Shown here one piece after another: positions 310 to 59,930 of a DNA stretch of 64,000 nucleotides (within the stretch, counting starts at the first letter, position 1; each line of letters opens with the position of its first letter). The DNA comes from an uncultured bacterium (GTDB lineage Bacteria; Patescibacteriota; Gracilibacteria; Absconditabacterales; Absconditicoccaceae): NCBI GenBank assembly GCA_937862565.1, contig CALMFT010000014.1, positions 1 to 64,000 on the forward strand, in the 5' to 3' direction. The notes under the pieces were generated by a model. The model had not been told where the DNA came from and did not search any database. It was given only the letters and a program-made list of their open reading frames with translations. A program made the translations under genes and the position numbers.

Positions 310-2247
310 TTAGAATTTACTTTGCATAAAACTACTAAAATTATTTCGATCAAATATGGTTTCATTACTCAATATTAAAGTTTCATATGTTTTGAGTGAA
401 TTAATGAGTACGGTACGGAAAGTACGTGATGTCATTTCATCTGGTTTAATCTTATCTTTATATTCAGCATTGATGTATAAATTTTGAGTCAATGATCCAA
501 TCACAACGAAGGAATACATTTTTTTGTAAATACTCATGATCTCATCAATATTAGACTTATTTCCGTTTGTATATTTCTGTAGCAATTGACTTACTCTATC
601 ATTGGTATATTGAGAAGGATTCAGAAGAATATTATCAGAAAAAAGTGCAGATAAATCTGATTTTAGACCAAGTTCAAGAGGTAATAAAGCCATATCATAA
701 CCCTTGCTTGAAAGTTTTCCTTCAAACTCTTGAATACTATTATAATATGTTCGTGTAATAAAATTATCAATTCCTTGATCAGTAAAGTACTGCTTCAGAT
801 TATTTACGATTTTCTGGCTATTTGGTTCATCCAAATAAATAATAGTATAATTAGTTTTTTTTGTATTGAGCGTTGAAGTCTGTGGCTTCACACCGTAATG
901 TACTTTCATGGATAATAATTTGTTTTTCACACCATCAAGATATCAATAAACTATGTAGTTATTGACTCATTTTTGAATATTTTTATACTGCACGCTAAAG
1001 TTATATCCGCATGAATTATTTTCTACATCATACGTGTCAGGTGTATATTCGGGACTTCAGTTTGCGGATATTGTAATCTTATCATATTTTGCATCAAATT
1101 TAAATTCAACTAAGTATTTATCTCTTTGTTCATCCAAATAGTATTCTTTAAATTTATTTTTACCAAATATCCAGATATTTTTTGGTAAAAAAGGAAAAGC
1201 AACATTGAGAGTACCTGCGGAAGAACCAGATATTACAGATTGATTAGAAATAATATTTTTGAGAATAATTCCAGTATCATTGTTTTGTAAAGAAAAAATA
1301 TTCTGATTATTATGAATCAAATTATCATAATTTAATTGACTAAGCTGATTGGTGAGTGCTTTTCTTAAACCTTCTCCTACGGTATTTATATTAAAAAATA
1401 AGGTATATAAGGTATTTGTAGGAATAGACTGATCTTGAAAGTAAGGTTTTATCGAACTAAAAACTTCACCCTTCCCAACATCAGTGGCAATAAAATCAAC
1501 TATAGTATCTTTATTTTGTAAGTAAGTAACAGACTCAGTTTCATCAGCGAAAGATTTAACTTGAAGAATTTTTGGGTAATACTGACTACACTCAGTCACA
1601 TCAAAAATATAATTATTATTGTGAGATTTAACAAGATCCAGAATAGCACAGCTTATATAAATAGGCTGTTTAGCAAAAGTCTTCAGATAAAATTCCATAG
1701 TCTGATCTTCTAAAACATGCTTTGGTAAAATAGAATTCGTAAAGAAAAGAATATTATCAACTGATTGCTTGGGAAAAGTCACTTTTAAGGCATTATCTTG
1801 CTTAGTAATTTCTGTTTTCCCATATACATTGAGAGTTGGTATCTTCCAGATATTTTCTTTGAGAATAGTTTGATAGGTGAACTCAACATCATCAAGTGTG
1901 AATGGTTTATTATCCAACCATGCTAACTTTTTGTTTATCCTCACAAAATAGTTTTTGTAATCATTGGTAGTTACTTCACATATATCATCTTCAAATGCGA
2001 TGGTACCAGTCCCATTTGGCTTTGATCTTACGCAAGCACTAAACAATAAACGTTGATAAAATTCATCAGTGCTATTGGTGCTAGTATAAGGAAGATAATT
2101 TAGTTTTCCTAAAACGCCTTCTACAATGGTTCCTCCTTTTGTCGGAACTTTAGCAGATACTTCTTGCACATAGTCATAAGCAAGATGAAAAGAAGTAAAA
2201 ATAAAGATAGCTGAAATAAGAAGAAATACTATTTTTGATAATTTCAT
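310..2247 (-). CDS. ABC transporter substrate-binding protein, peptide-binding family 5
   Basis: A 645-residue extracellular solute-binding protein of the SBP_bac_5 (OppA/DppA-like) type that would deliver peptides or similar solutes to an ABC importer. An N-terminal hydrophobic segment (residues 5-23) acts as signal or anchor. The family opening follows: GGTIVEGVLGKLNYLPY near residue 38, then the hallmark region WLDNKPFTLDDVEFTY near residue 130, equivalent to the usual W-x-DG-x-PFTA-x-DV. The DG of the hallmark is DN here. Three UGA codons, including 1057-1059, are read as Gly in the last third; without them the protein would stop 196 residues early. No permease or ATPase genes lie next to it, so its transporter must be encoded elsewhere. 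It is followed downstream only by the partial gene at the window edge. Confidence 0.85.
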
Positions 2248-2332
2248 TGGACTGCATAAAAAAAGTAATAGGTCAAATACATGACTCTATTACTGATAAT
2301 TATATTTCACTTAATGTCAAATAACTAGGATA

Positions 2333-3739
<1,407 letters not shown>

Positions 3740-3869
3740 AGTAATTCCCGTTATTAAAAAAATTAAATACATTCTGTAAAATTCACTTTATACTAATTAA
3801 CTTATTCACTGTATCAAGCACAACTAACCACACTAGTAATATTTTTTACATATTTGCAATAAAGAAAAA

Positions 3870-3893
3870 GCTCCCGTAAAAACGGGAGCAAAA
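3870..3893 (-). terminator. Intrinsic terminator downstream of the 80-residue unknown gene
   Basis: A perfect 7-bp stem (GCTCCCG / CGGGAGC, 3870-3876 and 3883-3889) with a 6-nt loop. On the minus strand it is followed by a T-rich run, so it works for minus-strand transcription arriving from the gene at 3930-4172 and separates that gene from atpD. Confidence 0.8.
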
Positions 3894-3929
3894 TTTGCAT
3901 CTTGATATTGTTGTATACTACTATTCAAA

Positions 3930-4172
3930 CTAATTCTTAAACTTTTCTTTTAAAATTTCATAAGCAATTTTTAAATCCTTTTCATTACAGGATAGTAATT
4001 CACAAATTTTTTGTTCAAGCAATTTTCGTCGCTGTGCTTCAATCTTTTGCTTATGTTTTTTGAATCTTTCATTTGATGCTCGGAAAGCTTTAATACTAAA
4101 TCCTAGATTAGAAACGTGATCATGACGATCATCTCTACCATTAGGATTCATTTCTGCAAAATAATGTCCCAT
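3930..4172 (-). CDS. Small unknown protein, 80 residues, basic and helical
   Basis: Not recognised. The N-terminal 30 residues are polar with a Gly/Asp/His cluster (NGRDDRHDH). The rest is rich in Lys, Glu and Arg and should form long helices. It ends in TAG, contains no UGA codon and no membrane segment, and has no clear Shine-Dalgarno sequence. An intrinsic terminator follows it, so it is probably a single-gene transcript. It could be a nucleic-acid-binding or ribosome-associated small protein, but nothing in the sequence proves that. Confidence 0.6.
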   Translation of the reverse strand: MGHYFAEMNPNGRDDRHDHVSNLGFSIKAFRASNERFKKHKQKIEAQRRKLLEQKICELLSCNEKDLKIAYEILKEKFKN

Positions 4173-4383
4173 ATTTTTCTTTTTTTATTTTATTGAAATA
4201 TTTTATTCTCTTTTTTACACCATTATAGGTGGATCTATCTTGAGTTATCAACCGATAGATAGGTTGAGTGAGAACGAGTCTGAATCAGACTTTTTCTTAT
4301 AAGATTTTAATGAACAATACCAAAATGCTATATAACATATAAAGAAATTATATACTTTATCAATATTTTATAATGAAAATTTT

Positions 4384-5919
4384 TTATTTTTTCTTCACCT
4401 TCATCCTGACTACACTCAGTGCATTATTCGTAAATCACATCACATCAAAAGTAACAATTTGGTTTTCAGGTCCATCTATAACTTGATATGATGGGATTGG
4501 GGATTTGCTTCCTGTGACTGTATTGTTTTTATTATAGTAAGAACCTTCAAGCGCTACAAATTCTAGATTTTCAGGTAGATTTACAATAGCTTGATTACGC
4601 CAATTGTAGCTAAGACCCAATATATGTTGTTCTCTTGGGGTGAGCACAATATCGTATTGTTTAGTGAGTCAAAATATTTGATCATTATAACTTTGGGGTA
4701 TACTCAGAGTATAGTAAAAATAAAGATCGTAAGTTGAACCATTATCAAGTGCTTTTTTAATTTCTTGTGGATCAAAAATACCATTTTCACTTTCAGCCAC
4801 AACCTGTCCATTTTTATCTTGAAGAGCAAATCTTTTGACTACAAATGAATCGATTTTATTGAAACTCTTATTGAGATTCCACACATATAAATTTTCCTTA
4901 TCATGCACTGTCATCAATCATTGATCAGCTAGGAAAGACTGAAACTGCTGAGTACTTTGAGGAAAGTATAATTGAATATCATGATTTTGAAACAAGGTAG
5001 GTAGATTATTTATAATCTGAGTAAGTAGCGTAGATTTATTTTCATTGAGAAAAGTGCCCATATCAGTGAGATATTTTTCTTTTTTATTCGGCGTAGAATT
5101 GCCTCTAATAAGATCAATACTTGCATTTACAAATTGCCATTCTATAAATTTATTTTTTAATTCAGGAACTAGTTTTTGAAGTACTTCAGATCTAAGCATA
5201 ATAACTCCATCAATATTTTGTCCCGGGAAAAGCTGTTCATAGATATTTTTGATATTCCCACCATCTTGAGCAGTAAAACCATACACATTTGGTGAAATAA
5301 AATTGATATTTTCTTGTCCAAGAATTTTTTGATAGTTCTTATCAAGAAGGATTTGCGCTCCAGTATTTTGATAATAAGCATAGTATGAATCATATATTTG
5401 ATTTTTTATAACCTTTCCTTTTTGGATTTGTACAATAGCATAGGATCAGAAAAAACCTCAATTAGGTCTAATTTCTGCACTATTCATGAGCGCTATCAAG
5501 TAGGTGTGAACTCTATCGGATCACAATAAATTCAGAATATCGTTTTTATATGGCAACCATTGTAATCAGAAATTATAGAGTTTTTGATATGAAGAAGGAA
5601 TATTATCTTTGAGAGTCTGATTATTCTGTAAAGTATCAAAAATAGTATTGATGTCATCTGTATAATTGAGTACCGCTTCTCATGATTGTACCGCTTGATA
5701 AATCCTTCCTGCACTACCAAAAAAATTACCAACCTGTTTATCCACTCACCAAGCTAGTTTTTGTGCCACAAAGGATTGTTGTTCTACAGAACTTTTGGAT
5801 AAAGACTGCAAGGCATAGATTCCATTTAATATCAGAAAAATAACTGCTAAAACTCCCGTAAAGAATATCACAGGTCAGTAAGAAACTTTTTTTTGCTGTT
5901 TTTTATAAAATCAGAACAT
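4384..5919 (-). CDS. DUF4012-family membrane-anchored protein
   Basis: 511 residues. A short basic N-terminus is followed by one transmembrane helix (about residues 14-34); the rest is predicted outside. The DUF4012 hallmark LMNSAEIRPNGGFFGS lies near residue 143, followed by a Gly-rich turn and a later DGVIMLRSE motif. DUF4012 proteins occur in Gram-positives and CPR bacteria, often near LytR-CpsA-Psr cell-wall genes; their biochemical role is not established. The gene is full of UGA glycines, including residue 3 and the segment near 4435-4437, and splits into fragments when read in the standard code. The start ATG at 5917-5919 sits back to back with a consensus plus-strand promoter at 5925-5953. 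Confidence 0.85.
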
Positions 5920-51146: not shown

Positions 51147-52580
51147 ATGTCTCATCAAGATTATCTCGATTATATGTCACCTTTTTTCAAGTCTGTATGA
51201 GGATTTGAAGAGTTTTCAGCAAGCATAAATACTCCCCTTCTCAAGTCTTTCTCTTGTGTACAATCTCGCGGGTCGGTACAGACCACGATAGTAAGACTCC
51301 AATCTCAATGATTTAGCGTACAGAAATCAGATTATAATCCCCTCAATTATAAGGTAAATAAAGAAGAGGACGAAAAAACTATAGCTTTAGGTAAAACTCC
51401 TGAGCATATTTTGGGTCAGTTGTATATCCAAGAAACCGCTGCAAGTCTTCCTGCATCCATTATTCCCCTGCCCATGGAATGAAATATCCTCGACATGTGT
51501 GCTGCACCAGGAGGAAAGACGACACAATTGGCGGATAGATGTAAAATAATCTGATCTAAAGCGGTGATTCGAGCAAATGAACCCGATAGTAAAAGAATAA
51601 TCCCTCTTGCGAGCAACCTCACGAGAACGGGTATGCAAAATGTAGTGACTATACAGCATGATGGAAGTAATTTCTGAAACCATGTGCCTGAATTTTTTGA
51701 TAGTATCTTATTGGATGCGCCTTGTAGTGGGGAAGGTACTGGGTTTAAATCTGATTTTGGGACGAAGTTTTGGGATATCAGAAAGGTCGAATCTATCGCT
51801 AAAGTGCAACAACAATTGTTAATCTCTGCTTTCAAAGCTTGTAAGGTTGGTGGAAGTATTTTGTATTCTACCTGTACCAGTAATCCCCTCGAAAATGAAG
51901 TAAACGTGCAGTTATTACTCGATAAATATGGAGATAAATTGGAGCTTCAAGAAATAAAAATAGACTGATTATCTGCTGGTCTAGAAGGTTTTGGAGAAGT
52001 AAGTAAATATAGTAAAAGACTACGACCTCATCTTCATCACACTTGAGGATTTTTCATGTGTTTGATGAAAAAAACTTCTGCAATTGAGCAAACCTTCAAC
52101 CAATCGGTCTACAAACAAAAATGAAAATGAGTGATGAAACCAAAATTCATCGCCTGTGATCACAAAGCAATCACACAACGACTCTCGGATAATTTCCAAA
52201 TATCAGTTCCAGAATATATCCAATTTTCTAAGTCTCAAAACCAAATTTACGCCCACAATACCCTCGATTTTGCTCAACTCAATCAATTCAAAATAGATAA
52301 ACCATGAATATTGGTTATCAAAGGAGATAAACCTTCAAGCTGGAGAGTTACTCACGGAGCGGGTTTGATCTTCGATTTCGCACCTTCCTATCAGATTCAC
52401 CTCAACGAAAAACAGGTCCACAATCACATCAACCAACAAGATATCGACCTAGAACCTGAACAAATTCCTTCATCATTTTCTCCAAGCAATTATGTTCAAC
52501 TCACTTTTGAGGGAAACAAAGCTGGAGTAGGGAAAATAATCTGAACGAGTATCAAGAATAAACTGAGTGGAGTTTTTTAG
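51147..52580 (+). CDS. RsmF/NSUN-type rRNA cytosine C5-methyltransferase
   Basis: 477 residues. SAM-binding core with DMCAAPGGKTTQLA (motif I), the catalytic ILLDAPCSGEGTG (motif IV, Cys) and LYSTCTSNPLENE (motif VI, second Cys). The N-terminal NusB-like domain of RsmB is absent and the C-terminal ~190 residues follow the RsmF layout, so m5C in 16S rRNA is likely. Many UGA codons are Gly, two within 9-mer copies (51546, 52536). The C-terminus overlaps, on the opposite strand, the code-25 reading of the Avd gene. Confidence 0.87.
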
Positions 52581-52946
52581 TGTACTACCCCCCCCCTCAT
52601 ATCACGATTGAGACTTTCTTTCCCAAGCTAACAACTGTTTTGATATAGTTTCTATCGATTCACTCAAAACTACAAATCTTTCTACTGCTATGATATGAAG
52701 ATCCTTTGATAATCTCAATAATACTCTAATTCCTTCCAATGTTGCTCTTGTTTCTATAAGAGATTCTTTTTTATGTAATAAAGTATTAGTTTTATAAAGT
52801 GAAGATATCAACATCAAACAATCCTTTTTGAGTTGTTCACCCAAAGTATATTTAAATTCTTTGGGGAATTTTTTAATCACTAAAAATAAAGAAAGAGTGA
52901 GATCATAACTTGCCTTATAAACTGGAAGATGTTGTGCAAGAGTCAT
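52449..52946 (-). CDS. avd: Avd-like accessory variability protein of the DGR, with a UGA read-through extension
   Basis: Residues 1-114 form a four-helix bundle typical of bAvd (LAQHLPVYKASYDLTL, KEFKYTLGEQLKKD, RATLEGIRVLLRLSKDL, ending LLAWERKSQS). Avd is needed with the RT for mutagenic retrohoming. Its ATG overlaps the RT stop (TAATG), implying translational coupling. The natural family end is a UGA at 52602-52604; read as Gly in code 25, the frame continues 51 residues through a G9 tract (52588-52596) to TAG at 52449-52451, opposite the end of the RsmF-like gene. So either the protein has an unusual tail, or this UGA is a relic stop. The short version is 52602-52946. Confidence 0.78.
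52588..52596. repeat. C9 homopolymer (G9 on the Avd strand)
   Basis: Nine C in a row, exceptional in this AT-rich window, just after the RsmF stop and inside the extended Avd frame. Slippage here would change the extended tail of Avd. It could also mark an assembly seam. Confidence 0.7.
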
Positions 52947-54109
52947 TATTTATTATTAAGTTTTGTAAAAGGAGAAGAAATAGGATAGCTCTCTGGAAGA
53001 AGAGATGTTATTTTTTTTCTTTGTTTAAAATTTCTATAATGCTGCATCATCCCTAAATAAGAATGGATTGTAGAATGAGCCTGAGATGTCTCGTATTTTG
53101 TATAAGATCAAAAATTATTTCTTATGCTACGAAAAGATCTTTGTGCGTTGCCAATAATCCTACGATTGATATAAATTCTATAAGGTTTAAGGTAGGATCC
53201 AAGAAATTTAACTCCTTTAGTATAATGCTGAAGGTATATTTTTTTAGGATGAAGGGTAAGTCCCAGCTCTTGTGCTAAGTAATTCTTAATCAAAGGAATA
53301 ATAGAAGTAAGAAAATTTTTATCCTGATGTACTATCACAAAATCATCTACATATCTTCCGTAGTATGCACATCAAAGAACTTGTTTGACTCGTAGATCAA
53401 AAGGATGAAGATAAATATTAGCGAATAATTGACTGGTAAGATTACCAATAGGAATACCACATCAGGGGGAAGAAGTAAATAAAGATTTATCAGAAGGAAT
53501 ATGCTTATATAATTTTCTAGAGCCAATAAACTGATAAAATTGCGTAGGATCATGAAGAGTAACTTTTTTGATAAGATCCCATAATCGCATAAAGTACTCC
53601 TCTGCATCAATTCCTCCTCAGCTTATCAAAGATTTTTTGGATGCTAAGGTTTGCCGTATAAGGTAAAGTAACACTTCTTTATCTATATTCATAAAGAATC
53701 ATTTGATATCAAGTTTGAGGATTCGGCTATCACGAGAATAGTTAGCGCTAGAGGATCTTACAAAATGATCAAGTCTTTTTACTCCATAATGAGTTCATTT
53801 CCCAATTCTACAGCTATAACTATCATGAATGAATCACGTATCACAAATATCAGAAATTTTATTAATAATCAGATGATGTACTACTCTGTCACGAAAATCG
53901 GGAGCAAAAACCTCTCTAGGAACAGTATCACAAATCAAAAAACAAATATTTTTACTAATAGTATACGTTCCGTCTATAAGTTCCTGACATAAGGTAATCA
54001 AGTTACTTTCATAATGTAATTCAAATTCCAGTTGACTCAAAGAGTTTCTCTTATTACGACGAGCATCATAGTAAGCCACAAAAAGATCAGTAAGTAGTCA
54101 TGCGTGCAT
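52946..54109 (-). CDS. DGR reverse transcriptase
   Basis: 387 residues. Visible: the N-terminal ARRNKRNSLSQLEFE region, VPREVFAPDFRDRVVHH (RT2a-type), KLDIKGFFMNID (motif 3), SSPGCGIPIGNLTSQLFANI near residue 216 and YVDDFVIVH near 253 (catalytic Asp pair). The IGNLTSQ form (where other RTs have QG..xSP) marks the diversity-generating clade. Seven UGA codons, including the Gly of LDIKG, are spread along the gene, so it is adapted to code 25, not freshly imported. It is a component of the cassette VR-TR-RT-Avd. An out-of-frame frame (53347-53610) inside it is not a gene. Confidence 0.95.
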
Positions 54110-54134
54110 ACTATTTATTTAGTATATAAAAGGA

Positions 54135-54155
54135 AACCAGTCATATTGACTGGTT
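54135..54155. repeat. Perfect 9-bp hairpin between TR and RT
   Basis: AACCAGTCA-TAT-TGACTGGTT. It lies between the TR and the RT start and could form in the TR-containing RNA, where structured spacer RNA is needed for cDNA priming in studied DGRs. Confidence 0.6.
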
Positions 54156-54160
54156 ATTCT

Positions 54161-54335
54161 TTGGAGTGCTAAACGAGCAAGCGCAAGGGTCGAGCGTACT
54201 CACGATTGTAGTCATCTAATTTACCTTTTGATTCATCCCATTTGCACGCCCACGCGTTGTCAGAGTCAGACTCAGAACGTGACCACAGATAGCCATACGA
54301 GCCACAGTTCTCTCGCTCACCACCGTTACGGTAAC
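54161..54335 (-). repeat. DGR template repeat (TR)
   Basis: A 175-bp repeat of the VR at 54638-54812. It lies upstream of the RT gene, on the same strand, and would be the RNA template. Its sense sequence has AAC/AAT-type codons at the diversified sites (N, D, E, K and Y codons). Compared with the VR it differs at 14 positions, all T on the plus strand, i.e. adenines on the sense strand. A further C/G difference at 54168 lies just after the shared stop codon and marks the IMH*/IMH boundary. It can be read as the end of a 60-residue frame, but it is a template, not a gene. Confidence 0.95.
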
Positions 54336-54520
54336 ATACACTAAAAATCATACTTAACCTTTGTCAGTCAGTCATATTTCATTCTTACTGATCTTTTACT
54401 ACTCACGAGAGCTATCCGATAGCCATCGTCAGTGTATGATTGAACTCCAATTACACACTTTTGTAATCCTTAGATTTACAAAATTCTGGTATAGTCATAT
54501 AGTAATTAACTAGTAAAAAA

Positions 54521-54554
54521 ATTCAATAAAAATTTTTATTCAATAAAAATTTTT
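54521..54554. repeat. Two tandem 17-bp repeats between TR and VR
   Basis: ATTCAATAAAAATTTTT occurs twice head to tail (54521-54537, 54538-54554) in the 300-bp spacer separating TR from VR. Apart from these and a short GCTAT-ccg-ATAGC hairpin near 54411, the spacer shows no gene. Confidence 0.8.
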
Positions 54555-54619
54555 CGCACACCCGAGGGGCTTACTCTAGCCTTATCCATGCGAGCCCAAA
54601 ATTGTCATAAGTGACGAAT

Positions 54620-54634
54620 CTTCGCTTTGCGAAG
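54620..54634. repeat. Hairpin just past the VR (target-site cruciform candidate)
   Basis: CTTCGC-TTT-GCGAAG, a perfect 6-bp stem with 3-nt loop, 3 bp beyond the VR repeat end and 11 bp beyond the target gene's stop codon. Studied DGRs need a similar hairpin/cruciform next to the IMH for efficient retrohoming. Confidence 0.7.
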
Positions 54635-54637
54635 GTT

Positions 54638-54812
54638 TTGGAGTCCTAAACGAGCAAGCGCAAGGGTCGAGCGCACCCACGAAAGTAGTCATCTAATCTA
54701 CCTTTCGATGCAACCCATTTGCACGCCCACGCGCTGTCAGAGCCAGACTCAGAACGCGACCACAGATAGCCATACGAGCCACAGTACTCTCGCCCACCAC
54801 CGTAACGGTAAC
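54638..54812 (-). repeat. DGR variable repeat (VR)
   Basis: A 175-bp copy of the TR forming the last 55 codons of the AAA+ gene plus its stop. The 14 differences from TR change 11 amino acids (for example Asn to Tyr, Ser or Phe; Asp to Gly or Val; Glu to Gly or Ala; Tyr to Cys) and are silent at two Ser codons. The fixed frame (CGSYGYLWSRSES, AWACKW, ARPLRLLV) matches the C-type-lectin fold used by DGR variable proteins. Confidence 0.96.
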
Positions 54813-57648
54813 CTGACATATCAGTACCAAGAAGAATGCTCATAAGTTTTGCTGATCCTGTCTCTCGACCCGTAGAAGTTGGAGAACTTGGTGGAGTTCC
54901 AGTTGGTCCTCCGGGTAAAGCTGTAAGAGTTTTTCGCATATCTTGATAGCTAGGAACTTTAGCTTGTTTTTCTTTTACTATTTTATCTACCATTGCGTAA
55001 TTAAAGTAATCTTCATCAGCATAAGCTCCTTCTCCTTTGAATACATGAGCTTGGGTTCAATCTGCTGGATTATCTTTATCATCTACAGTATAAGTGAGTC
55101 CAAAATCACTGGCTTTAGTATTTTCATGTGCTCGTGGTATTCCTCCAATAGTAATAGATTCCTTAGTAAACTGTACATTATTGATCATTGCTATATATGC
55201 TGGAGTTTCCATCTTGTTATCTTTGAGGAATTGGAAGGCTTGGGATTTACGTTGTTGCTCAAGCTCGGAAAAATTAGCATTAGATTTTGCTACATTATTA
55301 GCCTCAATATGCTCCTCATATTCATATTGTTTAAAAATATCCTTTGCTTTTTGCTTTTGCTCCTCCTTGATTTTCTGATTTTTATCTTGTTCACTAGTAT
55401 CTTCGAGTAATTTATTAAGTTGTTCAAAGAATCACCATGCAGGATTATTATCATACTCTTGCAGATAGTGAGCATTATCATTTTTTATAGCAGTATCAGT
55501 CGATGATCGATCTCTATCCAAATTTAATTGATCCTGACATACAGCAATAAGTTTTTTTATATCTTCTTCAGAAAATTGAGACTGTTTATCAAGTACATCA
55601 AGAAGAGTTAAGATACTCACATCTCCTCCATATTCATCAATCAGAAGTCAGATTATTTTTTTTATCTCTTTTTCTTTCTTAGTCATATGAATCGTATCAC
55701 TCAAGGGAAGTTTACTAATACTAGGATAAAGAGCTATTAAAAGTTGGGTAATATCTGTTACTTGTAAGGCTCCTTTATTTCATTTTACCACTTTATCTGA
55801 GGTAGAAACGAGGTTGAGTTTAGCAAGGGTGATATTATTTTTATCTTTCTTAGCCAACTCTTTTGATCTAGTCGTAAGATACTCTTCGTGCTGCGAATCA
55901 ATCAAACCTTTAGCAGAGAAAACTCTGAGTAAAATACATTGATCTTTGATATCAGCTTGATTACTAATAAAATCACAAATTTTGTGGGCGATAATAGTAT
56001 CATAACTGCTATCTTGTATAATTTGTAATCTTTCAGTTTCATCCCAATTTCGTAGTTCCAGAAATCTTTTAGTATCAAGGAGAGCCTGATTGAGGGTTCA
56101 TTTTGTTTCCATAAAATCTCCAGCTGAATTGAGTTTTGAAGAAAAATAAGTTTGTTCTTTTCTCGCAAATCTCAAATCTTCAACTTCGGGAATTACTTTA
56201 ACCAGATTATCAAGTAAGCCATTTTCCTTGAAGGTAGAAGCTCCTACATAAGGAATATATCATGGTTTATACATTAGTTTTGCAGAAACAAGAAGCTTGA
56301 GTTCATCTCCCCCAATATAATCTACAGGAATTGGTGAAAACTCACGAGCTATATAATCTGCAGGAATAAGACCATATTGTTCTCATCGATTGGTAGTACC
56401 AATAAAATTCACAGACTTAATATCTATCTGATCACCATTACTAAGCGTTAATTTTTCTCCTGGTTTACGAGATCGGAAGAATTTGAGATAGGCAAGTGCA
56501 GATTCAGGATATCTTAAGAATTCATCAATAATAATAGGTAATCCCATTTTACAAGCTAATTCTAACTTGCTCATAGCGAAGTCAAACATGGGTTTATCTT
56601 GTGCTTGATCACGAACATGTGAAAGTTGATCAGGTGATTGTTTGGTTAAAGGAACAATTTTACCTAAAAATTCATTTTTTGTAGCATCAGGATGCCCAGA
56701 TAAAGCTGGAACATCTTGTGAAAGTAATTCAAATTCTTCTTTGGAAATTTGCTCACGATTCATAAGCATATTGAGAAGTTTTCTTACCGTATACTTTGCA
56801 AGTTCTGTTTTCCCTGTACCCGCTGGACCTGTGAGCACGCTATTTTTTCTGTCTAAAATATTGTGAAGAATACTGTCTACGATTTTTTCTCTACTTGCTA
56901 AACCTTCTACTACTAATCATCCATTAGTAGCCTGTTGTTTATGAATATTTCATAATTGTCTATACAATACTGCAAGTTTTGTATCCTTATAGCTTTCTGT
57001 TTGCTCTGCTAATGATTGTTGAAGAATGGAAATAATATTAGTGAGATACTCTTTTGCTGACTTGAGTGGATAAGACTGTTTTGATATTCTACTCAATTCA
57101 TCGTGATAGGTAAATCGATCTATATCCAGAATAAGTTGTTGTAGAGAAGCAATAGAAGATTGGAAAGAAGAACTACGATTATGTAAAGTAATGAGATTTT
57201 TGATAGATTTTTGCAATTGACTCACAACAGAATCAAATATAGACTTGGCATGGGGAGAATTGAATTCAGCTTTTTTTAAATTCTGTATTGCTCCTTCACC
57301 ATTCTCTTGTATTTCAGCTTCTATGAGGGATCGATCAGTATATTCTTTTTCTGGTATGGGAGTAAGATTTCTCAATTTCTTTTCTCCCTTCTCAAGAAGT
57401 TGAAGATGTGGTTTTCTCTTAGTAATTTCACGAGAAAGTTCAGGAGAAATAGGAAAATCAGTATTTGTTTGACCCAAATAGATATCTGTGAAAGAATGTT
57501 GTGTGAGAGTAGCAAGATCTGCTGAATTAATAATCTCTTGAAGAGATGATGTATGTAAAGTAGATCAAAGTTCATCCACTTGTTGCTTGTGTTTACGTAT
57601 GGACTTACGTTGGTCCAAAGAGAGTGATGAAGGAGAGTGATTAGTCAT
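54646..57648 (-). CDS. MoxR-type AAA+ ATPase with a DGR-diversified C-type-lectin C-terminus
   Basis: 1000 residues, joined across at least eight UGA codons. Order: helical N-terminal region (1-260); AAA+ module with Walker A GPAGTGKTE (273-281), Walker B LPIIIDEF (370-377) and sensor FIGTTNRG (415-422); a helical middle with charged repeats; and a C-terminal FGE/C-type-lectin domain whose last 55 residues are the VR. MoxR ATPases remodel partner proteins and pair with vWA proteins; the gene lies 26 bp after such a partner. The diversified surface would be the recognition part. UGA codons at 56950, 56383 and 55432 are needed to join the domains. Confidence 0.92.
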
Positions 57649-57674
57649 TAGAGAAGAGAATAAGGTAAATATAT

Positions 57675-59930
57675 TTAAATTTGTTTCAGTCAATTGATAA
57701 GTACTTCTTGCATTTTAGAACCAAGATCTGAAGGTTTTTCACAAATAATTCCAGATCCCTGACCAGAGTCAACTTTGCCGAAAAGATCTTTCATAGGAGA
57801 CCCATCGCTTGTGATACCAATTCCAGAAGTAATAACTCCCAATGCACGTAATTGAGCAATCATATTTACAGCAAGCTGTTTATCAGAGGTTTGACCATCG
57901 GACATCACGAGTATTATATATTTTTCTTTTCATTGGGCTACTTTTTTCTTATAGTCTTCAGTCAATAATTCAAAATCTTCATACACTTTTTGAAGTGCTC
58001 CACCGATATTAGTACCCCCATCATCAATAGATAGCCCTTCCAAAGAATGTATAACATCTTCACTTGTCCAGTCATTGGATGCTGATTTCCATTCCTGAAT
58101 CTCAGAACTTCCATCAAATATTAATCCTTGAGACCAAATATCAGGTAATTTATTTTTATCTATCTGATTATCTCGTCATCCTGTTGCATCCAGAAGCTTA
58201 TCACTAAGAAGCTTGAGCGCATGCATAATGAGGAGGCTATTAATCTTTTGGTCATGATTTTTAATACCTTGCATACTTCCACTTCCATCACAGACTAGTA
58301 CAAAATGAAAACCTGTTACGAGTTGTTGTTCAAGTATTTTACGGTAATCTTTTTGTCGAGCAAGCGTTTCTGTGATATCTTTACCCAAAAGATTATCTAT
58401 ATAAATCTCTACTGTTCCACCATCATGAAGTTCTCCATTTCCTCTATCACTATCTACTGGTCATTTATTACGTATTCTTTGATTAGTTCTTTTTGATTTT
58501 ATATTCTCAAAAATATCAGTAAGAATTACATCAATAACACCACTATAATCTGATTCTATTTTCGGTAAGATATCTTCGTTGTACTCTTCAAGTAATTTGA
58601 CTAACTTATCTCGTTCACGAGGATCGGAATTTTCTAGATCTGCATATTTTGTTTTTCTGAGTTGAGATTCAGCTTTTTTAGTAGAGTTAGATTTTGCCTC
58701 TTCTTCATATTTTTTCTCAATAAGTTCATTTATTTCTTCTTGAAGTTTTTGGATATCATCTGATTTCAATCCTTCTTCTTCCAAGACATGAGGCATATCA
58801 TTTATCTTTTCATACCACTTTGCAAAAGGATCATCTTCTAATTCACTATCATTTTGATCATTTCAAGCAGATTGACTAGGGTCTCCTTCTTGTGTTCCTT
58901 GTGGCTTTCCTTCACCAGGTTTTCACTGATTTTCCCCTTCCTGTTCTCATTGCTCTCATTCCTCTCCTCATTGTCATTGTCACTGCTCTCATGGTAACTT
59001 ATCCTGTTGAGTAGAATCTTTTGAATCCTTGTTAGTAGTATTATTCTGAATATCTTCTTCGTAGAGTTCTTTAAATTTATGATATAAAAATAGGATATAA
59101 GGAAGTCTCACAGGTAGTGAGATAGAAGTGTCAGTAGCGTGGCCTATAATATCGCTTCTAGAACGATTGTATAAATCAATTAATGACTGTACTTTAGGAT
59201 CAAGAATTACTGGACTTCAAGGAGTCATTTTTTGTCTTAAAATACCCTGCCCAAACTGCAAATGTAAAGGCATCAATCCTCCCAACTCTTCTTGATTAGT
59301 CCAATCGTCTCCAGGAAAACACCAATCACGATAATTATCCTCAAGAGTTTGACTAAGAGCAAATATTCACTGTTGGTAATCTACACTGCGTTTATTCACA
59401 TACACATCTCTCATTCGATTTTCGAAGGTATGGTATAGTTTTTCCTCTGCAATGAGATTTTTTCTTTTATCCAAAAGAGTATTTCCAGGAAGAGCATTGA
59501 ATCATCTTGCAACAAAACTTGGAAGTGTATGTTTGAAATGTTGTGAATAATCTAAAGAGTTGGAAATTTTATTTCATCGATATTCTAGCTCAGCATTTTC
59601 ATACAGATGTCACAATTCATGTAATGATATTTGAATAAGCTGATTGAGGGTAGGATACTTTTGAGTTTGAGAATGAATAATTTTTGCCAAACTCGGTAAA
59701 TTTATGAAAATAGACTTTTGTGATTCTTTATGAGCTCCCACATCATCTTTTACTCGAGCTATAGCATCATTTTGTGAGTCATTCAAAAACTGTATCTGGA
59801 TAGCTTTACCCAGACCATGTGCATACCCCTGTGTTCGAGAATTTATTATTTTTTTCTCTGAATCATTGAGCATATATTCATAACTATTTTGTTCGTCCTT
59901 TTGCATACTCTTATGATACTCAACAGCCAC
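57675..59930 (-). CDS. vWA-domain partner protein of the MoxR AAA+ ATPase
   Basis: 751 residues. N-terminal helical domain (1-260), a Gln/Gly/Glu-rich linker (about 290-350, many UGA), an acidic helical region, and a C-terminal vWA domain with a complete MIDAS: DGSGS (548-552), Thr in GGTNIGG (640) and Asp in MSDGQ (677). The arrangement resembles CobT/ViaA-type partners of MoxR ATPases, where the vWA domain binds the hexamer or the substrate. It is the first gene of the cassette. The start is a GTG at 59928; an ATG nine codons later (59904-59906) is an alternative. Confidence 0.88.

Follow-up and report, generated by a model that had tools for sequence, protein, structure and literature searches.

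At positions 52449–59930 of the window (the whole 64,000-nucleotide stretch of contig CALMFT010000014.1 analysed here, from an uncultured member of the Absconditicoccaceae, Patescibacteriota), a diversity-generating retroelement (DGR) is arranged on the minus strand together with the genes for an AAA+ ATPase and a vWA protein. The repeats at this locus show that the end of an ATPase, encoded alongside a vWA protein carrying a metal-ion-dependent adhesion site (MIDAS), is or was subject to an adenine-mutating retroelement. The co-occurrence of AAA+, vWA and DGR genes reported by the first-pass annotation is confirmed; that annotation did not mention the second target, the enzyme-like head of the vWA protein, the separate lectin copies or the mix of RT lineages described below. 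Read with NCBI table 25 (TGA = Gly), the order in the direction of transcription is the vWA partner (57675..59930, 751 aa, GTG start), the AAA+ ATPase with a C-terminal variable, lectin-like domain (54646..57693), the template repeat (TR, 54160-54335), the reverse transcriptase (RT, 52946..54109, 387 aa) and the accessory protein Avd (52449..52946, 165 aa). All four genes are open in table 25 and are interrupted by TGA in table 11 (17, 10, 8 and 3 codons), bearing out the earlier remark that the system is visible only after recoding UGA. The five parts do lie on one strand, as had been stated, but the gaps of 26–485 bp given for them do not hold throughout, since the vWA and AAA+ genes overlap by 19 nt when the latter starts at TTG; the ATPase is then 1015 aa long, and the 1000 residues first described apply to a start at the ATG at 57648.

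The target sequence in the AAA+ gene, variable repeat 1 (VR1, 54637-54812, minus strand), ends 9 nt past the stop codon and forms with the TR, which lies between the AAA+ and RT genes, a repeat of 176 nt with 91% identity. The two differ at 15 of 176 sites, and 14 of these are adenines in the TR, changed to G at eight sites, to T at five and to C at one; given 43 A among the 176 positions, the hypergeometric p is 5.3e-9. The sole non-adenine difference, a TR C that is G in VR1, falls directly past the stop codon. The RT matches RVT_1 in Pfam (1e-14), has as its closest relatives RTs from other loci with adenine-biased TR/VR pairs, and contains YVDD and IGNLTSQ, the latter fitting the xGxxxSQ pattern that we take to mark DGR RTs. 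The Avd gene product scores above the cut-off of the Pfam model bAvd (6e-16) and under that of the NCBIfam model DivGenRetAVD (4.7e-14). The locus thus has an adenine-biased TR/VR pair, a DGR-type RT beside the TR and an Avd-like gene, and its DGR chemistry is well supported. Relics or chance repeats were rejected on the strength of the adenine bias and the conserved gene set.

A second target in trans was found by a translated search of the same genome (G000, 46 contigs). This is a stand-alone protein of 312 aa, lacking an AAA+ domain, on contig C32 around 111060-112007 (L014:1498-2436), and its C-terminal half is 59% identical to AAA+ residues 714-1015. The block common to the two proteins is nearly continuous from about residue 812, and delimits a lectin-like module at 54649..55260 (minus strand; AAA+ residues about 812-1015). 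Between its repeat, VR2, and the TR there are 32 mismatches in 177 sites, of which 15 fall on adenines (p 0.0017); VR2 thus bears the mark of a DGR, but one left longer ago or by an earlier template. With the TR as a DNA query against the whole genome, the only strong matches were the TR itself, VR1 and VR2. Both VRs, and not the TR, show a G after the stop codon and, at most 3 nt from the end of the VR, a hairpin with a 6-bp stem and a 3-nt loop; the one just 3' of VR1 (CTTCGC-AAA-GCGAAG, 54620..54634, minus strand) is identical to that after VR2. In the Bordetella phage system, DGR targets use a difference between the initiation of mutagenic homing sequences IMH and IMH* and a hairpin after the VR, and the VR-specific G and hairpin seen here fit that scheme. 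A different hairpin of 9 bp lies directly 3' of the TR (54135..54155, minus strand) and is possibly an RNA signal in the TR transcript. The VR2 gene is flanked by what appear by eye to be a topoisomerase tail and a radical-SAM protein.

The ATPase, its variable end and the vWA partner

The ATPase assignment is well supported once relatives of the protein are included. The Walker A motif GPAGTGKT (56806..56829, minus strand) is conserved in 30/30 relatives, as is the Walker-B-type glutamate of LPIIIDE (56521..56541, minus strand), and AAA_5 was matched in 28/30. The nearest solved proteins in the PDB, by sequence profile, are midasin, McrB and CbbQ/NorQ; of these, midasin, CbbQ and NorQ operate with vWA domains. 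Hence the label MoxR-type given at first is justified in the broad sense of the AAA_5 clade, and the locus combines an AAA_5-clade ATPase having both Walker motifs with an adjoining MIDAS vWA gene, a pairing found at 30 of the 37 vWA loci described below. The bpMoxR model itself scored 12.3 bits against a cut-off of 27, and PADLOC, used to look for known anti-phage defence systems, gave only a partial match of the AAA+ protein to PDC-S68 (6.5e-9). A signal peptide, or poor conservation of the ATPase motifs among homologues, had been named as arguing against an intracellular role. The ATPase motifs proved to be conserved in all 30 relatives, and a crude hydropathy scan of the AAA+, vWA and VR2 proteins revealed neither a likely signal peptide nor a membrane segment, so that neither objection held.

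The vWA domain of the partner protein (57804..58298, minus strand; Pfam VWA 6e-7, residues 545-709) has the MIDAS sequence DGSGS at residues 548-552 (58275-58289), of which the D and the second S are invariant in 37/37 vWA proteins, so that the neighbour was rightly described as a MIDAS protein. Near its N-terminus is a HELGH motif (59607..59621, minus strand; residues 104-108), which possibly belongs to a zinc-peptidase domain. An HExxH motif occurs at residues 87-124 in 12/37 vWA relatives, and another 17 of the 37 match Transglut_core, a C..H..D pattern being present in 15/37. In this partner the vWA domain is thus joined to either of two unrelated heads, peptidase-like or transamidase-like, the former being read from the HExxH motif.

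For the variable end, as for the trees and other profile searches, comparisons were built on small custom alignments. With hhalign, a profile built from the lectin end of the window's ATPase plus its three closest relatives was linked to a profile of 13 classical DGR targets (66.7%, E 5e-5); five of these targets were scanned with Pfam and gave Fib_succ_major or Lcl_C. A structural model made from 30 aligned rows had a mean predicted local distance difference test (pLDDT) score of 59 (59.4 with 29 DGR targets aligned), and its best PDB matches, themselves weak, were the C-terminal domains of Legionella Lcl (E 0.025) and of Bd2740 from Bdellovibrio (Z 5.6). C-type lectins came lower in the lists; as the alignment itself contains rows resembling Lcl_C and Fib_succ_major, the Lcl match is not independent. 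Folding from the single sequence without relatives was useless (mean pLDDT 36.6). PDB sequence searches with the lectin profiles gave no matches for the window's type of end (A9) and nothing meaningful for A8, the f5-type ends of loci in code-11 genomes. The latter also showed no profile link to the classical targets or to the window's end, so a lectin fold would be assigned to them from their position and their VRs. A C-type-lectin-like fold for the window's variable end is suggested by these comparisons, which stop short of proof.

Distribution across Patescibacteria and origin of the reverse transcriptases

Within the class, the vWA profile matched at 17 places in 15 of the 353 genomes; of 379 genomes sampled across the phylum it matched 22, and G000 and G180 are in both sets. 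The 37 vWA loci examined comprise these 17 and 20 of the 21 new places from the phylum (G455:C54 lies outside), with L054 and L055 taken, by inference, to be halves of one locus. An AAA+ gene adjoins the vWA gene in 30/37. As this adjacency also holds at loci lacking an RT, the pair is a unit independent of the retroelement. A DGR-type RT is present within the same fetched stretch in 15/37, and at 9/37 the C-terminus of the AAA+ protein contains an adenine-biased VR (the window, L056, L108, L109, L244, L246, L250, L251 and L257). The order vWA, AAA+/VR, TR, RT on one strand, which it had been proposed to look for in related genomes, recurs in L108, L109, L246, L250 and L251, all from code-11 genomes; the suggestion that the arrangement might be a code-25 member was not sustained, and the vWA–AAA+ pair is Patescibacteria-wide and not bound to that code. 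Extra stand-alone lectin targets adjoin the AAA+ gene in L109, L250, L251, L252 and L257.

Viewed from the RT side, the RT profile was present in 77/353 genomes of the class, and 5 of 72 class RT loci (71 and the window) hold a vWA gene: the window, L056, L106, L108 and L109. The same RT query applied to two control sets gave no vWA gene and one weak AAA match among 80 loci from GTDB genomes (mostly Bacteroidota and Chlorobiota), and neither domain among 80 viral loci. A phage origin was rejected, given the absence of both domains from these RT-seeded viral loci (0/80 each) and of AAA+ relatives from viral contigs in two scans. Four genes neighbouring the window's operon were scanned with Pfam, two being RNA methyltransferases and two having no match.

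Searches for missing templates gave no match for the G046 AAA+ gene in the RT contig of that genome, for the G297 VR in two RT contigs of G297, or for L055 against L056, and in L222/L106 a TR-like copy showed only a mild adenine bias. In L055, a remnant RT of 111 aa (979-1314) lies between the vWA gene and an AAA+ gene whose lectin-like end is doubled in tandem (1378-4941), and reads as a decayed DGR at the same AAA+/vWA machine. Three loci without an RT (L258:1-7485, L259:3393-14574 and L262:1-6040) have vWA–AAA pairs, or in L262 the vWA gene only, amid arrays of small paralogues. Proteins of these arrays have a conserved end and a variable part, with one common C-terminal tail in the L262 set, and are perhaps another supply of variable clients. 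A further code-25 locus, L069 (12843-20000), encodes a protein of more than 2386 aa with two internal VRs whose mismatches fall at TR adenines in 19/21 and 23/28 cases.

The RTs found with AAA–vWA pairs do not form a single group. A tree made by quick search from 104 of 221 RTs (all 64 of Patescibacteria, and random draws of 22 of the 79 genome-contig rows and 18 of the 78 viral rows) placed 12 of 14 such RTs in a set exclusive to Patescibacteria. The other two, from the window and, on a long branch, from L056, fell in a broad set that also holds RTs of Bacteroidota, Chlorobiota and viruses. L113 and L114 were counted among the 14 by virtue of a VR-bearing gene cut by the contig end, with an AAA+ match in L113 only. 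Constraining the window's RT and the other 12 to one clade was rejected by the approximately unbiased test (p-AU 5e-39). The RTs nearest to that of the window are from DGRs of its own family, of which L061, L066 and L067 have small lectin-like VR targets and no AAA+ gene. Since the window's RT and most of the others represent separate DGR lineages, the simplest account is that local DGRs joined an existing AAA–vWA pair more than once; replacement of the RT would be an alternative. Small proteins adjoining the RT, without AAA+, were noted in five loci of the window's family (L061, L063, L064, L066 and L067), and an adenine-biased VR was detected in that neighbour in L061, L066 and L067.

Proposed function and competing explanations

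We consider it fairly probable that these genes form one functional unit, an intracellular AAA+/vWA machine with a DGR-diversified lectin sensor and an output through a peptidase- or transglutaminase-like partner. RT and Avd would copy the TR with mutagenesis of adenines and so rewrite VR1, at the lectin-like end of the ATPase; at some point they would also have rewritten VR2, in the separate lectin protein encoded on contig C32. Binding would be the task of the diversified lectin, which would select a changing ligand within the cell, most likely a protein from a phage or another invader. The vWA protein and the AAA+ ring would act as a remodelling pair resembling MoxR/vWA systems or midasin, as in NorQ/NorD or RavA/ViaA, with ATP-driven remodelling handing the ligand, or a signal, to the head at the N-terminus of the vWA protein (HExxH in the window, transglutaminase-like in many relatives). 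The formation of a complex, its enzyme activity, its intracellular site, the nature of the ligand and a defensive outcome are all inferred, as was the recognition of intruders or host factors suggested at first. A narrower version, put forward tentatively, is a protein-processing machine found throughout Patescibacteria and evolved by retroelements: the hypermutated lectin would serve as a substrate selector from which the AAA+ protein passes captured invader proteins to its HExxH- or transglutaminase-like partner. On this view it would also be the case that DGRs of several lineages were recruited repeatedly, and that versions without an RT may use the paralogue arrays.

Several observations weigh against a single diversified sensing machine. 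The window's AAA+ protein, taken alone, gave only sub-cut-off Pfam matches (AAA_22 4e-4; AAA_5 0.0085), and for the HExxH heads of the window's vWA protein and its relatives a Pfam scan gave no match to any peptidase model. Seventeen of the VR2/TR differences lie at non-adenine sites, making the tie of VR2 to the present TR a loose one. No RT is seen at 22/37 vWA loci, in some cases owing to a contig end, and the searches turned up no other genome of the genus, so strain-to-strain variation of VR1 was not visible. Finally, clade-5F DGRs of the candidate phyla radiation (CPR) have been argued to be unlinked to conflict-system domains and possibly to serve host interaction (Dore 2024, PMC10907252).

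A plausible though unlikely alternative is that this bacterium is an epibiont or predator whose lectin end recognises molecules of its partner cell, the role of the machine being in attachment, export or delivery. CPR DGRs are usually discussed as diversifiers of host attachment (PMC10221324, PMC10907252). However, AAA+ ATPases function intracellularly, the operon has no secretion genes, and the scan for signal peptides and membrane segments was negative for all three window-genome proteins; because of the latter the ligand would most likely be cytoplasmic, and an invader product would then be likelier than a surface partner.

It is doubtful that the useful diversity resides in stand-alone lectin copies, the fused copy being only their shared docking or assembly site on the AAA+/vWA machine. 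The VR targets beside AAA+ genes in five loci, the second target in the window's genome and the paralogue arrays beside RT-less pairs (L258, L259 and L262) all speak for this idea, but VR1 is nearer to the present TR than VR2 (15 against 32 differences), so that the more recent rewriting was that of the fused copy. More doubtful still is an ordinary MoxR/vWA chaperone, devoted to assembly of, or metal insertion into, one complex, with the DGR as a passenger on a handy C-terminal lectin domain. In its favour, vWA–AAA pairs do occur without an RT, and midasin, CbbQ and NorQ, which are among the best-matching AAA+ proteins of solved structure, are assembly factors; a fixed client, however, would leave unexplained why more than one RT lineage is found at the same pair and why a VR occupies the same AAA+ end in nine loci. 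That the DGR is a relic that no longer works is very unlikely: the many non-adenine differences in VR2 and the RT remnant between the AAA+ and vWA genes of G025 would agree with decay, but the window's RT and Avd are intact, 14 of the 15 VR1 differences are still at adenines, and both the post-stop C/G difference and the hairpin set VR1 and VR2 apart from the TR.

Relation to known systems

AAA–lectin DGR targets in CPR bacteria, and DGR-linked MoxR–vWA systems elsewhere, are already published. An AAA ATPase fused to a lectin is the commonest CPR DGR target (Paul et al. 2017, per PMC10907252), and a DGR clade exclusive to Patescibacteria has been described (Roux 2021, PMC8144416). The targets of Paul et al. 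have a C-type-lectin VR fused to an AAA ATPase, as the comparisons above suggest for the window; added here are the operon with an HExxH- or transglutaminase-like vWA protein, the stand-alone lectin targets and the several RT lineages. No description of a vWA-peptidase partner of these CPR targets was found in the literature searched, which did not cover Paul et al. 2017 itself.

Kaur 2020 (PMC7159879) described MoxR–vWA ternary conflict systems, some linked to DGRs, with multicellularity statistics that exclude CPR, and Dore 2024 (PMC10907252) proposed DGR-diversified sensors in such systems, in agreement with the earlier statement that linked systems are known from other lineages. These ternary systems likewise combine a MoxR-clade ATPase, a vWA protein and a DGR-diversified lectin, and transglutaminase-like and metallopeptidase domains occur in them too, if rarely (PMC7159879, PMC10907252). 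They differ in that the lectin is mostly on the vWA component, an effector or lectin fused to that component being part of their definition in Kaur 2020, whereas here it is on the AAA+ protein, and it is the vWA protein that bears the peptidase-like domain; they also have a third component (VMAP, iSTAND, FtsH, beta-propeller and others), and no such domain was found in the operon's proteins or the four nearby genes scanned. The lineage, Patescibacteria, is a further difference.

AAA–lectin DGR targets of CPR have been known as common, without a clear role. Their pairing in a conserved operon with a peptidase-like vWA protein, to which DGRs of more than one lineage have been joined, makes of "AAA plus lectin" a defined machine, the input and output of which can be tested, and ties CPR DGRs to the MoxR–vWA conflict systems of multicellular bacteria, from which they were earlier kept separate. 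It also suggests that diversified intracellular sensors may exist in bacteria with tiny genomes that are not known as multicellular, the recurring gene set being a candidate for a rapidly evolving sensor of this kind in many of them.

Two more distant comparisons are instructive. The MoxR/vWA assembly factors NorQ/NorD and RavA/ViaA, together with midasin, likewise consist of an AAA_5-clade ATPase and a MIDAS vWA partner or domain, but, unlike the system of the window, have neither a diversified lectin nor a DGR. The classical targets (Fib_succ_major, Lcl_C) known from DGRs in Bacteroidota and Chlorobiota share with the window its RT lineage and the motif pattern of the variable end, but their loci are without an AAA+/vWA machine (vWA 0/80). 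Among the loci retrieved was also a Chlorobiaceae DGR target in which a TIR domain is fused to an Lcl_C variable end (L145:5537-6922).

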